A stretch of DNA of 64,000 bases, from contig NZ_WBVO01000001.1 of assembly GCF_008933115.1 (NCBI RefSeq), positions 682,001 through 746,000 of the forward strand. The letters run 5' to 3'. The notes under the pieces are model-generated. The model was not told where the DNA came from. It saw nothing but the letters and a program-made list of their open reading frames with translations, and did no database searches. This stretch comes from Phaeocystidibacter luteus. GTDB taxonomy: Bacteria; Bacteroidota; Bacteroidia; Flavobacteriales; Schleiferiaceae. How positions within the stretch are numbered: position 1 is the first letter of the stretch; every line of letters starts with the position of its first letter. The position numbers and the translations under genes are program-made. Shown in pieces: positions 29,870-35,060 of this stretch.

Positions 29870-31183
29870 ATGCAGTACGTAGACAATATTGTGTTTGTTG
29901 CCGTTCTGGCACTCGCCATTCTTTGGTTTTCAAAGCAAGTTGGCAAGATTCGCAGAAACATCAATCTTGGTAGAGACATCGATCGTACCGATAACAAATC
30001 GGCCAGATGGCAAACGATGTTGCGTGTAGCCTTTGGGCAAAGTAAGATGCAAGCCAGACCCATCCCTGGAATTCTGCACTTCATTGTATATGCCGGCTTC
30101 ATCCTTATCAATATTGAAGTTCTCGAGATTGTACTCGACGGTGTATTGGGAACGCATCGACTGTTCGCCGAACCACTCGGTGGCTTATACGATGTGGTGA
30201 TTAACTTCTTCGAGATCCTCGCCGTGCTTGTCATCACAGCATGCGTTGTCTTCCTCATCCGCAGAAACGTTATCAAAGTCCCTCGATTCACCAAACCAGA
30301 GATGAAAGGATGGGCTACTAGAGATGGGAACAACATTCTGTACATCGAGATTATCTTGATGCTTGCCTTGCTAACGATGAATGCCACCGAAGCAAACTTC
30401 GAACATGCAGTGGCAGGACCATTCCTCATTTCGCAATACCTCGCCCCTATCTTCTCGGGAATGTCGCAAGATACGCTTCACATCGTTGAGCGCTTCGCTT
30501 GGTGGTTCCACATCATCGGAATTCTCGCATTCTTGAACTATCTCCCGATTTCAAAACACTTCCACATTATTCTTGCTTTCCCGAACACATGGTACAGCAA
30601 CTTAAAGGCAAAGGGAAGCTTCCCAAATATGGAAGCAGTTACCAAGGAGGTGAAGATGATGCTAGATCCAACTGCAGACCCTTTTGCGGCTCCTTCAGCT
30701 GACGATTCAGGTGCTGCACCCGAGCGATTCGGTGCTAAAGACGTGACCGATTTGAATTGGGTCAATTTGATGAACGCGTATTCGTGTACAGAATGTGGAC
30801 GTTGCACATCGGAATGTCCAGCGAATATGACAGGTAAAAAATTGTCACCTCGAAAGGTGATGATGGATACGCGCGACCGACTTGAAGAAGTAGGAAAGAA
30901 CATTGACTTAAACGGCGAATTTAAGGATGATGGCAAGTCCCTCCTCGACGACTACATTTCGCGCGAAGAGCTCTGGGCATGCACAAGCTGCAATGCCTGT
31001 GTTCAAGCATGTCCAGTGAATATCGATCCTCTTTCAATCATTGTTCAAATGCGCAACTTCCTTGTTATGGAAGAATCTGCAGCACCACAAGAGCTCAATT
31101 TGATGATGACAAATGTTGAGAATAACGGGGCTCCTTGGCAATTCGCTCAGGCTGACCGACTCAACTGGAAAGACGAAGCATAA
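29870..31183 (+). CDS. membrane 4Fe-4S protein (HdrC/HdrE-like redox subunit)
   Basis: A 437-residue protein. About five membrane helices in the first 240 residues resemble the haem-binding NarI/HdrE-type domain. A cytoplasmic domain follows with two [4Fe-4S] motifs, CTECGRCTSECP near 305 and CTSCNACVQACP near 375. A short soluble partner with CCG domains lies two genes on, so the pair looks like a quinone-linked electron-transfer complex related to heterodisulphide reductase. The electron donor and acceptor are unknown. Its TAA overlaps the next ATG by one base. Confidence 0.85.
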   Translation: MQYVDNIVFVAVLALAILWFSKQVGKIRRNINLGRDIDRTDNKSARWQTMLRVAFGQSKMQARPIPGILHFIVYAGFILINIEVLEIVLDGVLGTHRLFAEPLGGLYDVVINFFEILAVLVITACVVFLIRRNVIKVPRFTKPEMKGWATRDGNNILYIEIILMLALLTMNATEANFEHAVAGPFLISQYLAPIFSGMSQDTLHIVERFAWWFHIIGILAFLNYLPISKHFHIILAFPNTWYSNLKAKGSFPNMEAVTKEVKMMLDPTADPFAAPSADDSGAAPERFGAKDVTDLNWVNLMNAYSCTECGRCTSECPANMTGKKLSPRKVMMDTRDRLEEVGKNIDLNGEFKDDGKSLLDDYISREELWACTSCNACVQACPVNIDPLSIIVQMRNFLVMEESAAPQELNLMMTNVENNGAPWQFAQADRLNWKDEA

Positions 31184-31620
31184 TGAGCATACCAAAGAAC
31201 CTGAAGTTAGAAGAGAAGATTGTTGATGGTCAGCATGTAAGTCCACTCCTTCCTGAGGACGTGAAGAACTACTTGATTGACATCGACGGTACCATTTGCG
31301 ATGACATTCCCAATGAGGAGCCTGAGCGTATGGCTACTGCACGCGTATATCCCGATGCGTTGGAAACCTTAAACCGTTGGTACGACCAAGGTCATATCAT
31401 CACGTTTTTCACCTCTCGTGTCGAGGAGAATCGGGAAGTAACTGAAGCGTGGTTAGCCGAGCACGGTTTTAAGTATCACGGATTACTGATGGGGAAACCT
31501 CGCGGTGGGAACTACCACTGGATTGATAACCATTTGGTGAGAGCTACCCGATATAAGGGAACCTTCAGTGATTTGGTAGATAAAGAAGTTACTATTCAAG
31601 TTTTTAAAGACGGCGAATAA
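31183..31620 (+). CDS. HAD-superfamily phosphatase-like protein
   Basis: A 145-residue small HAD protein. Motif I is DIDGTICDD (about residues 33-41) with both aspartates, motif II is the FTSR strand near 76, and a lysine (MGKPRGG) and an aspartate (WIDNHL) provide motifs III and IV. Homologues in Flavobacteria are often labelled phosphoheptose isomerase, but no SIS domain is present and I regard that name as wrong. It is inserted between the two iron-sulphur genes, coupled by one base to the upstream gene. Substrate unknown. Confidence 0.78.
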   Translation: MSIPKNLKLEEKIVDGQHVSPLLPEDVKNYLIDIDGTICDDIPNEEPERMATARVYPDALETLNRWYDQGHIITFFTSRVEENREVTEAWLAEHGFKYHGLLMGKPRGGNYHWIDNHLVRATRYKGTFSDLVDKEVTIQVFKDGE

Positions 31621-31622
31621 TT

Positions 31623-32411
31623 ATGAGTGAAGCGATGAAAGTGCCTACTATGGCCGAAATGATGGCGGCAGGTCAAAAGCCAGAAGTTCTCTTTTGGGTT
31701 GGCTGTGCTGGAAGCTTCGACGATCGTGCGAAGAAAATAACCCGCGCATTCGTTCAACTCCTCAATAAAGCAGGTGTATCATTCGCCGTACTAGGCACAG
31801 AAGAGTCTTGTACTGGCGATCCGGCTAAACGCGCTGGGAATGAGTTCCTCTTCCAAATGCAGGCGATGATGAACATTGAAGTCCTCAATGGATACGAAGT
31901 TCAAAGCATCGTGACTACTTGTCCTCACTGCTTCAACACGCTTAAAAATGAGTATCCAGAGCTAGGTGGCAAATACGAAGTAATGCACCACACCCAGTTC
32001 CTCAAGAAGCTACTCAACGATGGCCGATTGAAAGTAGAAGGAGGATCGTATAAAGGAAAGCGAATCACCTTCCACGACCCGTGCTACTTGGGACGTGCGA
32101 ATGACGAATATGAAGCGCCGAGAGAAGTGCTTTCTAAACTTGAAGCCGACCTCAGCGAAATGAAAAGCTGCAAGCAACGTGGTTTGTGTTGCGGTGCAGG
32201 AGGAGCTCAAATGTTCAAGGAGGCCGAAAAAGGCGACAAGGAGGTAAACATTGAAAGAACGGAGCAAGCACTTGAAACTCAGCCAGACGTTATCGCTACG
32301 GGCTGCCCTTTCTGTAACACTATGATGACTGATGGTGTTAAAATCAAGGAGCAATCAACTAAAGTAAAGGTATACGACGTTGCTGAGTTACTGGCAGATG
32401 CCCAGGCCTAA
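31623..32411 (+). CDS. CCG-domain iron-sulphur protein (HdrB-like)
   Basis: A 262-residue cytoplasmic protein with two cysteine-rich CCG domains: an N-terminal VGCAGS with TEESCTGDPAKR and TTCPHCFNTLKNEYP, and a C-terminal HDPCYLGR with GLCCGAGGAQMF and ATGCPFCNTM. Such domains bind non-cubane [4Fe-4S] clusters and are catalytic in HdrB, LutA and succinate:quinone reductase E. With the 29870 gene it should form a two-subunit redox complex. It starts two bases after the HAD gene. Confidence 0.88.
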   Translation: MSEAMKVPTMAEMMAAGQKPEVLFWVGCAGSFDDRAKKITRAFVQLLNKAGVSFAVLGTEESCTGDPAKRAGNEFLFQMQAMMNIEVLNGYEVQSIVTTCPHCFNTLKNEYPELGGKYEVMHHTQFLKKLLNDGRLKVEGGSYKGKRITFHDPCYLGRANDEYEAPREVLSKLEADLSEMKSCKQRGLCCGAGGAQMFKEAEKGDKEVNIERTEQALETQPDVIATGCPFCNTMMTDGVKIKEQSTKVKVYDVAELLADAQA

Positions 32412-32436: not shown

Positions 32437-32937
32437 ATGAATGTAGCTCTTAACGAATTACCTGATCATTGCAGGATTTGGATCTATCAAGCGCCTCGCG
32501 CATTGACGGTTGAAGAAAGAGAGGTTATATCAGCCGAGCTCGAAAACTTCACCTCTGATTGGCAAGCCCACGGTAAAGATCTTTATGCTGGATACGGCCT
32601 TTTCTACCGCCGATTTATCATCCTTGCCGTAGATGAAACCGTTCAGGAAGCTACGGGATGCAGCGTCGACGATAGCGTTACCCTCATTCAAAATCTCCAA
32701 AAGTCGCTCAACCTCGATTTGATGGACCGACTTCAGGTTGCTTTCAGGTCAGAGAACGACTTGGTGGTTAGCGTAAAGCTCGATGAGTTCAAAGGCTTAG
32801 TAGAAGCTGGTGATGTGAATGAAACGACGATTGTATTTAACAACCTCGTATCCAACCTCGGAGAATTCAGAACAAATTGGGAAGTTCCGGCTGCCAAATC
32901 TTGGCATTCACGCTACTTCGAAAGCGTACAGAACTAA
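32437..32937 (+). CDS. conserved Bacteroidota protein, unknown function (often mislabelled ABC ATPase)
   Basis: A 166-residue soluble protein. It has the segments CRIWIYQAPRALTVEE, a QAHGKDLYAGYGLFYRRFIILAVDE core and SGCSVDDS-like TGCSVDDSVTL, which are conserved in Flavobacteria next to these iron-sulphur genes. Homologues often carry the label ABC transporter ATPase, yet no Walker A, signature or Walker B motif exists here. It is the last gene of the mlaD/Fe-S run and its stop interlocks by four bases with that of the convergent mnmD-NUDIX gene. Confidence 0.8.
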   Translation: MNVALNELPDHCRIWIYQAPRALTVEEREVISAELENFTSDWQAHGKDLYAGYGLFYRRFIILAVDETVQEATGCSVDDSVTLIQNLQKSLNLDLMDRLQVAFRSENDLVVSVKLDEFKGLVEAGDVNETTIVFNNLVSNLGEFRTNWEVPAAKSWHSRYFESVQN

Positions 32938-34046
32938 GACCTCAACTTCACCAAACGGCGCCAAGCGGCGCGCTCTGTGGTGAAAGTGAACATATTTTCA
33001 GAGAGTCTTTCTAGTGGATACCATTGGAAAGACTCTTTTTTGTTTTGAGGCATCGTGCCAAGCTCATCAACGTTTAATGTGCTCAATTCAGATTCATCTA
33101 CCGGATGTACCAAGTAGTAAATGCTGATGACTTGAATGTCTTGATCAAATGTGGAAGCCGTGAAGAAATCAGTCGTGTATAGGTGATCCACTACTTCAAC
33201 CTCTAGGTTCAACTCTTCAACAAATTCACGTTTCAACGCATCAATTGCGCCTTCCCCCTCTTCCATTCCGCCTCCAGGAAATTTGAACATGCGTACTCCC
33301 TTGTACAGTTCACGACTAACCAAAAGACAATTGTCTTTTTCAAGAATCCCATAGACACGGACAGTGTACGAAGGTTTTTCAGAAGGATTATTCGGTTTGC
33401 GTGCCCGAGTCATTTCGCGCTTTCCCGGTGGGCCAGGCAAGCGTTCCACTTCAAAGCCCGCCTCTTTCATGTTGCGTTTTACTTGACCTTGCGCGCAATA
33501 GGTCACCAAAATTCCGTTCGGCTTCAGGGCTCTGCGACATTTCTGGAAGATCTCTACGGACCACAATTCGGGCTGTGTTGATGGTGCGAAAGCATCAAAA
33601 TATATGATGTCGTACGCATTGCGTTTCGGCTCCCAAGCGAGGATATCTGCATTCTCTTTACGCAGTATGAAATCCTTGTCAATCTCCGTTGGGGACGTCC
33701 AGCTTGAATTGTGAATGCGGTCGAAAACCTCCAATTCGCGAGGCGTTGTGCCTACCTGTAGCTGGCTCCACTCCTCTTTGGCTAACGGAAAAGCCTCGAG
33801 GGTATGAAACTGAATCGATTGAACTGCGCCTCTGGATTCACGCCAAGTGAGGAACACATTGATACCGGTTCCCATTCCCATTTCGAGAATGGATACACTT
33901 TTAGAATCAAGTGTTTTGAGGCCATGCAAAAGAAAAACGTGCATGGATTCATTAAATGCTCCATGCACGCTGTGGTAGTGCTGGTCCCACTTCTCCGAAT
34001 ACAGAGTTGGAGAACCATCAGACGTTACTTTTAACTCACGCTTCAT
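32934..34046 (-). CDS. MnmD-like tRNA methyltransferase fused to a NUDIX hydrolase
   Basis: A 370-residue protein in two parts. Residues 1 to about 230 match the MnmC N-terminal/MnmD (DUF752) SAM-dependent methyltransferase that completes mnm5(s2)U34 in tRNA: MKRELKVTSDGSPTL, HYHSVHGAFNESMHVF, the SAM loop LEMGMGTGIN near 55, and DAFAPSTQPELW near 151. Residues 240-370 are a NUDIX domain with box GGMEEGE...REFVEEL at about 258-282, in which the usual glycine before the last hydrophobic residue is asparagine (EELNL). The start at 34046 matches MnmD N termini. Free-standing MnmD is the norm, so the fusion is noteworthy. Confidence 0.85.
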   Translation of the reverse strand: MKRELKVTSDGSPTLYSEKWDQHYHSVHGAFNESMHVFLLHGLKTLDSKSVSILEMGMGTGINVFLTWRESRGAVQSIQFHTLEAFPLAKEEWSQLQVGTTPRELEVFDRIHNSSWTSPTEIDKDFILRKENADILAWEPKRNAYDIIYFDAFAPSTQPELWSVEIFQKCRRALKPNGILVTYCAQGQVKRNMKEAGFEVERLPGPPGKREMTRARKPNNPSEKPSYTVRVYGILEKDNCLLVSRELYKGVRMFKFPGGGMEEGEGAIDALKREFVEELNLEVEVVDHLYTTDFFTASTFDQDIQVISIYYLVHPVDESELSTLNVDELGTMPQNKKESFQWYPLERLSENMFTFTTERAAWRRLVKLRS

Positions 34047-34527
34047 CCGGGGTAGGAATTCGAAGCTTCTTGATTCTTGCAATTGGACCTTGACAAGAAA
34101 CAGACTGGTGGCAAGCGATGCAAGTATTCACCATGTTGTTGAACAACTTCACTTCTTCGCCCTCAGGAGCGTCAACTACAGCTTTCATCGACTGCAGGTA
34201 TGAATCTCCCATCGCATGATATACGGCCGTGATTTTCTCAGGTTCCGTGGCATCCGCAGTATGAAGATTGTAATACTCTTCCGGGAAGCTCTCTGGAGCT
34301 CCGCCTCCGTTCATGATTTGCTCTTTCATGGCCATGTTCTCGTCGAACATCTTACGCATGAGAAGAGCAAGTTCAGAAGGGTCAGGCATGATGATCTCAG
34401 AAGAAGCTTCCGTAGCAGCTTCCTCTTCAACCGGTTCTTCCGCGTTCGTTTCGCCAGAATTGCACGCTACAGCTACCGAAATAAAGGCGGCCATAGCGGA
34501 CAATATCAGGTACTTTTGAAATCGCAT
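34036..34527 (-). CDS. c-type haem lipoprotein
   Basis: A 163-residue lipoprotein with acylated C22 (VAVAC) and an acidic linker, then a mostly helical domain. The haem-attachment motif CIACH is near the C terminus (136-140), the position seen in cytochrome c'-type four-helix proteins rather than in class I cytochromes. No obvious sixth ligand was identified. It is placed 2 bases after the DUF4920 lipoprotein gene and overlaps the mnmD-NUDIX start by 11 bases. Likely an envelope electron carrier or sensor. Confidence 0.8.
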   Translation of the reverse strand: MRFQKYLILSAMAAFISVAVACNSGETNAEEPVEEEAATEASSEIIMPDPSELALLMRKMFDENMAMKEQIMNGGGAPESFPEEYYNLHTADATEPEKITAVYHAMGDSYLQSMKAVVDAPEGEEVKLFNNMVNTCIACHQSVSCQGPIARIKKLRIPTPDEA

Positions 34528-34529
34528 GA

Positions 34530-35060
34530 TTACGACTTAATAGTTACGCCAGTAGCGAGGAAGCTGAGCTTCGTTTCAGGCTCTGTGATCGCATCGATCT
34601 CCTCTTGAGATTTTCCTGCATCCTCTGCAAGGTGACGCAAATGGTCTACTCCAATGGTAGATTTCTTCACCTTACCTTCAATCACAACCTCTTTACCTTC
34701 GATACCTCCTGTAGGAAGAAGGAAAACGTAGTCGAAAGAAACGTGCATACTCTCCTCATCAGAAAGTGGCATGCTCATCCAGCATCCTTTCTTCTGACAA
34801 ACAGCGAGGATTTCGCCTTTTACTTTTACTTCAGCAGAATCTTTCTCTGCAAGAACGGCTAGCATTTCGTCGGTTGACATTGCACCTTCGAATGCTACGG
34901 TATCACCAAAGTGAAGAAGCTCTCCACCGGCCATTGCCATTTCATCTCCTGTATTCTCAACCATCGTTGAGTCCGACGTATTCTCGTCGTTGTTTGTTCC
35001 CTCTCCTGAGTTACAAGCAATCATTCCCACAACCGCAGGAATCATCATCCACTTTTTCAT
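34530..35060 (-). CDS. DUF4920 family lipoprotein
   Basis: A 176-residue lipoprotein. The signal peptide ends at C16 (GMIAC) and a low-complexity acidic linker follows. The DUF4920 domain occupies about 45-175, with its conserved CQKKGCWM near residue 93, an HVSFDYVFLLP strand and the closing ATGV. The two cysteines and neighbouring residues suggest metal or redox binding, but no function is known. It heads a three-gene run with the haem lipoprotein and mnmD-NUDIX genes. Confidence 0.85.
   Translation of the reverse strand: MKKWMMIPAVVGMIACNSGEGTNNDENTSDSTMVENTGDEMAMAGGELLHFGDTVAFEGAMSTDEMLAVLAEKDSAEVKVKGEILAVCQKKGCWMSMPLSDEESMHVSFDYVFLLPTGGIEGKEVVIEGKVKKSTIGVDHLRHLAEDAGKSQEEIDAITEPETKLSFLATGVTIKS

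Follow-up and report, generated by a model that had tools for sequence, protein, structure and literature searches.

In the 64,000-nucleotide stretch of Phaeocystidibacter luteus DNA analyzed here (the window), one gene on the minus strand joins a predicted MnmD (MnmC2) tRNA methyltransferase to a predicted NUDIX pyrophosphohydrolase, and this joining looks genuine but rare. The encoded protein is probably bifunctional, the product of an in-frame joining of neighboring genes that would have been translationally coupled, and its two putative activities are likely to be largely independent of each other.

Organization of the fused gene

The fused gene (32934..34046, minus strand; G000:C1:714937-716046 in the host genome, G000) runs from an ATG at 34046 to a stop codon ending at 32934 as an uninterrupted frame of 370 codons for a protein of 370 amino acids; a TTG at 34082, as an alternative start, would lengthen it by 12 codons. 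Its methyltransferase part (residues 1-218; 33393..34046, minus strand) was assigned from the NCBIfam model NF033855 (residues 15-217, 199 bits against a cut-off of 136, 8.3e-59), the invariant residues D151 and F153 and a fold match to MnmC, and it is also matched by PF05430 of Pfam (residues 133-217, 81.4 bits against a cut-off of 22, 6.6e-23). A linker of residues 219-226 (33369..33392, minus strand), located at the place of the mnmD stop codon and NUDIX start codon of relatives, leads into the NUDIX domain (residues 227-370; 32937..33368, minus strand), which was assigned from PF00293 (residues 228-351, 54.9 bits against a cut-off of 21.1, 1.2e-14; Pfam) and from profile matches to MutT-type PDB chains. 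With NF033855 and PF00293 both above their cut-offs in one 370-codon frame, these results bear out the preliminary description of the gene as MnmD and NUDIX in a single frame. Elsewhere in the host genome, the fused protein has no second full match and is matched only weakly by a single other NUDIX gene.

A structure model built from 5 sequences is of moderate quality (mean pLDDT 72.8, pTM 0.57), and the relative placing of its domains was disregarded. Residues 31-223 of this model match MnmC (3awi; Z 21.4, rmsd 2.3 over 188 residues) and residues 225-368 match MutT (3a6s; Z 15.3, rmsd 2.2 over 123 residues), with pLDDT below 50 at residues 221-225 in the linker.

The methyltransferase part

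Judged from its family, the N-terminal part is a predicted MnmD/MnmC2 enzyme that would catalyze SAM-dependent methylation of 5-aminomethyl-uridine at the tRNA wobble position. D151 and F153 are invariant in 92 of 92 methyltransferase rows, and the DGF motif of E. coli MnmC, which we take to be Asp-178 to Phe-180, aligns with D151-A152-F153 of the fused protein. Asp-178 and Phe-180 are active-site residues of E. coli MnmC according to PMC3648344. Another residue of that enzyme, Asp-26, falls into a weakly aligned stretch (10.5 bits) where the fused protein has Q22 and where E and Q are found in 69 and 15 of the 92 rows, respectively.

Among the closest parallels are the bifunctional MnmC proteins (E. 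coli 3ps9/3awi and Y. pestis 3sgl; Z about 21), in which MnmC2 likewise forms the N-terminal half of a two-domain protein, but their C-terminal partner is the FAD oxidase of the preceding reaction (as stated in PMC3648344), whereas here it is a NUDIX domain. This FAD oxidase domain, MnmC1, is absent from the fused chain, whose C-terminus is NUDIX. Stand-alone MnmC2 of Aquifex aeolicus (3vyw; Z 19.1, rmsd 2.7 over 191 residues) belongs to the same family and also has no oxidase domain, but unlike the fused protein it comes without a NUDIX domain.

The host genome encodes MnmG (834.9 bits, cut-off 524.85), and no MnmC oxidase (TIGR03197) was found in it above the cut-off (best 52.9 against 174.2) by a search whose control gave matches in 14 of 14 genomes, above the cut-off in 2. 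This combination is in line with a report on Bacteroides (PMC9976899), which describes mnmC(o) as absent there. Two matches below the cut-off of 174.2, L098 (G000:C21:90120-90989, 52.9 bits) and L099 (G000:C1:240734-241372, 48.7 bits), are likely other FAD oxidases, though either might provide an MnmC(o)-like activity.

The NUDIX domain

The C-terminal part appears to belong to the MutT-like NUDIX pyrophosphohydrolases; its metal-binding box is intact, and its substrate is presumably a nucleoside polyphosphate or a similar compound. The Nudix box (residues 259-281; 33204..33272, minus strand) reads G259-x5-E265-x7-R273-E274-x2-E277-E278-x-N280, and none of the residues G258-G260, E265, R273, E274, E277 and E278 varies among the 51 NUDIX sequences. 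The preliminary description had correctly seen an N in place of the usual G in the last element (N280), but its suggestion that this may alter the activity finds no support: position 280 is most commonly N (20 of the 51 sequences, compared with 9 for G and 22 for other residues), and the catalytic R, E, E and E are invariant. As far as these alignments indicate, a G in this element is a lax and not a decisive feature of the subfamily. Further residues invariant among the 51 sequences are R230, Y232, E246, K255, S298 and W342.

Searched against the PDB, the subfamily profile first matches the MutT/NUDIX entry 3id9 (3.5e-13), followed by Nudix hydrolase 1 and MutT-type chains. The domain shares fold and box with MutT-type NUDIX hydrolases (MutT 3a6s, Bacteroides fragilis 3gwy, Nudix hydrolase 1 and NUDT15) but differs from them in scoring far below the listed equivalog cut-offs and in four of its own invariant residues (R230, Y232, S298 and W342). 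None of the listed NCBIfam equivalog cut-offs was reached by the domain, and the MutT 8-oxo-dGTPase equivalog (TIGR00586) was rejected with scores of 25.6 for the whole protein and 28.1 for the domain against a cut-off of 97.9. We know of no assay for the NUDIX subfamily to which the fused protein belongs.

The junction of the two domains

At the junction, the methyltransferase end KREMTRARKP reads on into NNPSEKPSYTVRVYG, and neither an mnmD stop nor a NUDIX start codon is present. No in-frame ATG, GTG or TTG exists between M212 and L242, and the only off-frame start codons in codons 205-232 lie in frame +1 at 230.3 and 232.3, within the NUDIX domain. Two stop codons in frame +2, TAA at 219.7 and TGA at 222.7, may be relics of an old stop.

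The genes are separate in relatives of the same genus, as would be expected if the fused frame were a sequencing or assembly error spanning two genes. We simulated a wrong base count at 51 junction sites in two frames each, and only 1 of the 102 combinations leaves a start open, a TTG at codon 198 at the very edge, while an ATG is left open in none. A one-base error at the junction does not give two normal genes, and no stop was found between residues 225 and 245, where the preliminary description had allowed for a missed stop or frameshift. It had also allowed for a fusion missing from related genomes, but an identical architecture is present in two of them (G013 and G027). Because no one-base error provides an ATG for a separate NUDIX gene and because two further genomes share the architecture, we regard an artefact as very improbable, all the more with a host genome of 99.9% completeness and 0.04% contamination.

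It is also quite unlikely, though less so than an error, that the fused frame is translated and a second start at M212 yields a free NUDIX protein, so that both forms would occur in the cell. M212 is an in-frame ATG located 15 codons ahead of the NUDIX domain, but it is part of the methyltransferase KREM motif, with M in 89 of 92 rows, and is therefore present for a reason other than starting NUDIX.

Frequency and origin of the fusion

Profile searches gave MnmD matches in 71 of the 88 family genomes (E up to 1e-5) and 145 of the 198 class genomes (E up to 1e-20), which together amount to 215 distinct genomes with G000 as the only family member in both searches. Only 3 of these 215 carry the fused gene, and they represent two genera of one family: G000 itself as well as G013 and G027 of another genus, which have the same fusion with a different linker. 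A fusion of MnmD to NUDIX is thus confirmed to be the exception in this group. These counts rest on stop-to-stop frames and on frame lengths from the profile search and take no fusions from the order survey, with most genomes of the class judged on frame length alone (including G476 and G505, whose MnmD frames of 313 and 322 are too short for both domains). In 9 of the 215 genomes the MnmD matches are or include fragments and are partly unjudgeable (G069, G070 and G110 in the family; G473, G385, G396, G390, G508 and G523 in the class).

Long open frames resembling fusions in G005, G018, G012, G132, G054, G159, G301, G313 and G345 were rejected, as stop-to-stop frames resolve each of them into two separate ORFs. 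In G301 (L064, G301:C7) the MnmD frame is 388 codons long between its stops, 167 codons precede the methyltransferase match, and the NUDIX ORF is separate; this extension is possibly a mere long open stretch.

A FastTree phylogeny of joined methyltransferase and NUDIX rows from 33 loci, chosen from 49 with both, groups fused G000 with unfused G002 (support 0.991), then with unfused G001 (0.987) and G008 (0.905). The closest partner of the two fused g12 genomes, which sit on a long branch, is unfused G012 (0.910). Two separate fusion events would be the simplest reading of this tree, though its long branches leave doubt.

Outside the class, 10 of 61 genomes of the phylum gave matches at 1e-10, all of them to the MnmD part only (families f83 and f85). 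Of 101 plasmid records with a match, none covers more than 80% of the query, and no paper in the literature searched describes this fusion, as judged from titles and the beginnings of abstracts.

The gene pair in relatives

Among the 66 family genomes with both genes, NUDIX is adjacent to or fused with mnmD in 51 (fused in 3 of these), as counted by eye from the search rows like all family tallies given here. In the 71 family genomes with an MnmD match, NUDIX lies 2-4 kb away on the same strand in 8 and elsewhere, far apart or on another contig, in 7, and 5 have no NUDIX match at 1e-8, two of them (G034 and G095) with mnmD at a contig edge. Conversely, 13 of the 88 family genomes have NUDIX without an MnmD match (5 of the 13 are less than 90% complete), and 4 have neither. 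Eleven of these 13 are small genomes of genus g11, some of them incomplete, a pattern that suggests loss of mnmD. In G035, which has no MnmD match in its genome by profile search, the NUDIX gene (L095, G035:C43:1000-4000, at 1368-1889) comes after a DUF4920-like and a cytochrome-like gene, and mnmD is absent from this locus.

Where unfused and adjacent, the two genes often overlap. In the genus of the host, G002 has separate genes with an ATGA stop/start (overlap 4) and G001 has separate genes with the NUDIX ATG 8 bases inside the mnmD end. Across the fetched loci, the NUDIX ATG lies inside the mnmD end in 23 of 46 unfused pairs, and no ATG was found in 2.

Outside the order, the class survey found 58 genomes with two or more matches or with one match spanning both parts, and mnmD and NUDIX are adjacent on one strand in at least 14 of them (among the matches listed: G313, G345, G301, G311, G343, G356, G362, G316, G379, G381, G348, G354, G297 and G384, the last with a gap of 322 bases between the genes). 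Such adjacency would be far above chance expectation and hints at a functional tie. In the order survey, 38 of the 39 f3 genomes with a match show, among the matches listed, a single match at 1e-12 with E-values typical of the MnmD part. The fusion had been called unusual beforehand, and it is indeed rare; yet because the two genes are already recurrent neighbors in the class, joining them is probably a small step and not an unexpected recruitment.

The gene neighborhood

Immediately upstream of the fused gene and overlapping it by 11 bases, the window encodes a small lipoprotein-like protein with a CxxCH motif (34036..34527, minus strand; group D) that is cytochrome-c-like by eye and has no Pfam match, preceded by a DUF4920 protein (34530..35060, minus strand; PF16267, 96.5 bits; group E). 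Both likely share an operon with the fused gene. In the comparison of the window with 26 fetched stretches, DUF4920 and cytochrome-like genes stand ahead of mnmD in 9 of 10 family stretches (the window counted among them), all but L131.

Both mnmD and NUDIX are visible in 11 of the 14 stretches from outside the order; the flanks are mostly different, but groups S, R, O, F and N recur in some. Gene picking affects this comparison, as long antisense frames masked mnmD and NUDIX alike in L115 and L116, and one or the other in L123, L136 and L137. In L124 (G348, from another order) the pair comes after relatives of the window genes at 27.5-32.9 kb (groups I, G, H, J and M), so part of the neighborhood is old too, and this weakens the argument that only the mnmD-NUDIX pair is kept.

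The window also encodes at 29870-32411 a 437-amino-acid protein in which two cysteine motifs look 4Fe-4S-like by eye, a 145-amino-acid protein and a CCG-domain protein (PF02754), likely an operon. Relatives of the 437-amino-acid and CCG-domain proteins are found beside the pair in several genomes and adjoin it in L124.

Origin and meaning of the fused protein

The ancestral state would have been a pair of translationally coupled mnmD and NUDIX genes, from which small changes may have removed the stop codon of mnmD and the start codon of NUDIX to leave one chain with a short, loose linker. Such a linker would let each domain act on its own, and the gain from the fusion would most likely be only the equal production of both domains. 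That the activities are probably independent follows from relatives that keep NUDIX without mnmD and mnmD without NUDIX. NUDIX domains are likewise tied to biosynthetic enzymes in Tnr3/Nudix of thiamin metabolism (PMC4921024, in whose main text the word MnmC does not occur) and in a nicotinamide-nucleotide adenylyltransferase-Nudix protein known by its NCBIfam name.

Alternatively, the NUDIX domain could serve the same pathway, by clearing a nucleotide by-product or a damaged donor of wobble-uridine modification or by controlling MnmD, and the fusion would then fix this partnership. We consider this rather unlikely, even though its best argument is that the pair recurs in several families beyond the order, where the flanks are mostly different, and the overlapping starts in half of the unfused pairs of the fetched loci and the two fusions read from the tree point the same way. 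The 13 family genomes with NUDIX but no MnmD match count against strict dependence, and so do, against a partnership, the 5 with MnmD but no NUDIX match (two of these at a contig end), the 7 with the genes far apart or on different contigs and the single MnmD-type matches of the f3 genomes. It seems doubtful to us that the NUDIX enzyme is a true partner in wobble-uridine modification, or guards it, and that the recurrent fusions mark an unnoticed link.

The fused gene draws attention to a recurrent pairing of mnmD with an uncharacterized NUDIX gene; the two are neighbors in several families of the class and, by the tree, were fused twice. If the NUDIX enzyme acts in the pathway, it would be an added step in wobble-uridine modification for bacteria without MnmC oxidase; if it acts outside the pathway, the pair would be a clear case of gene fusion eased by overlapping genes.
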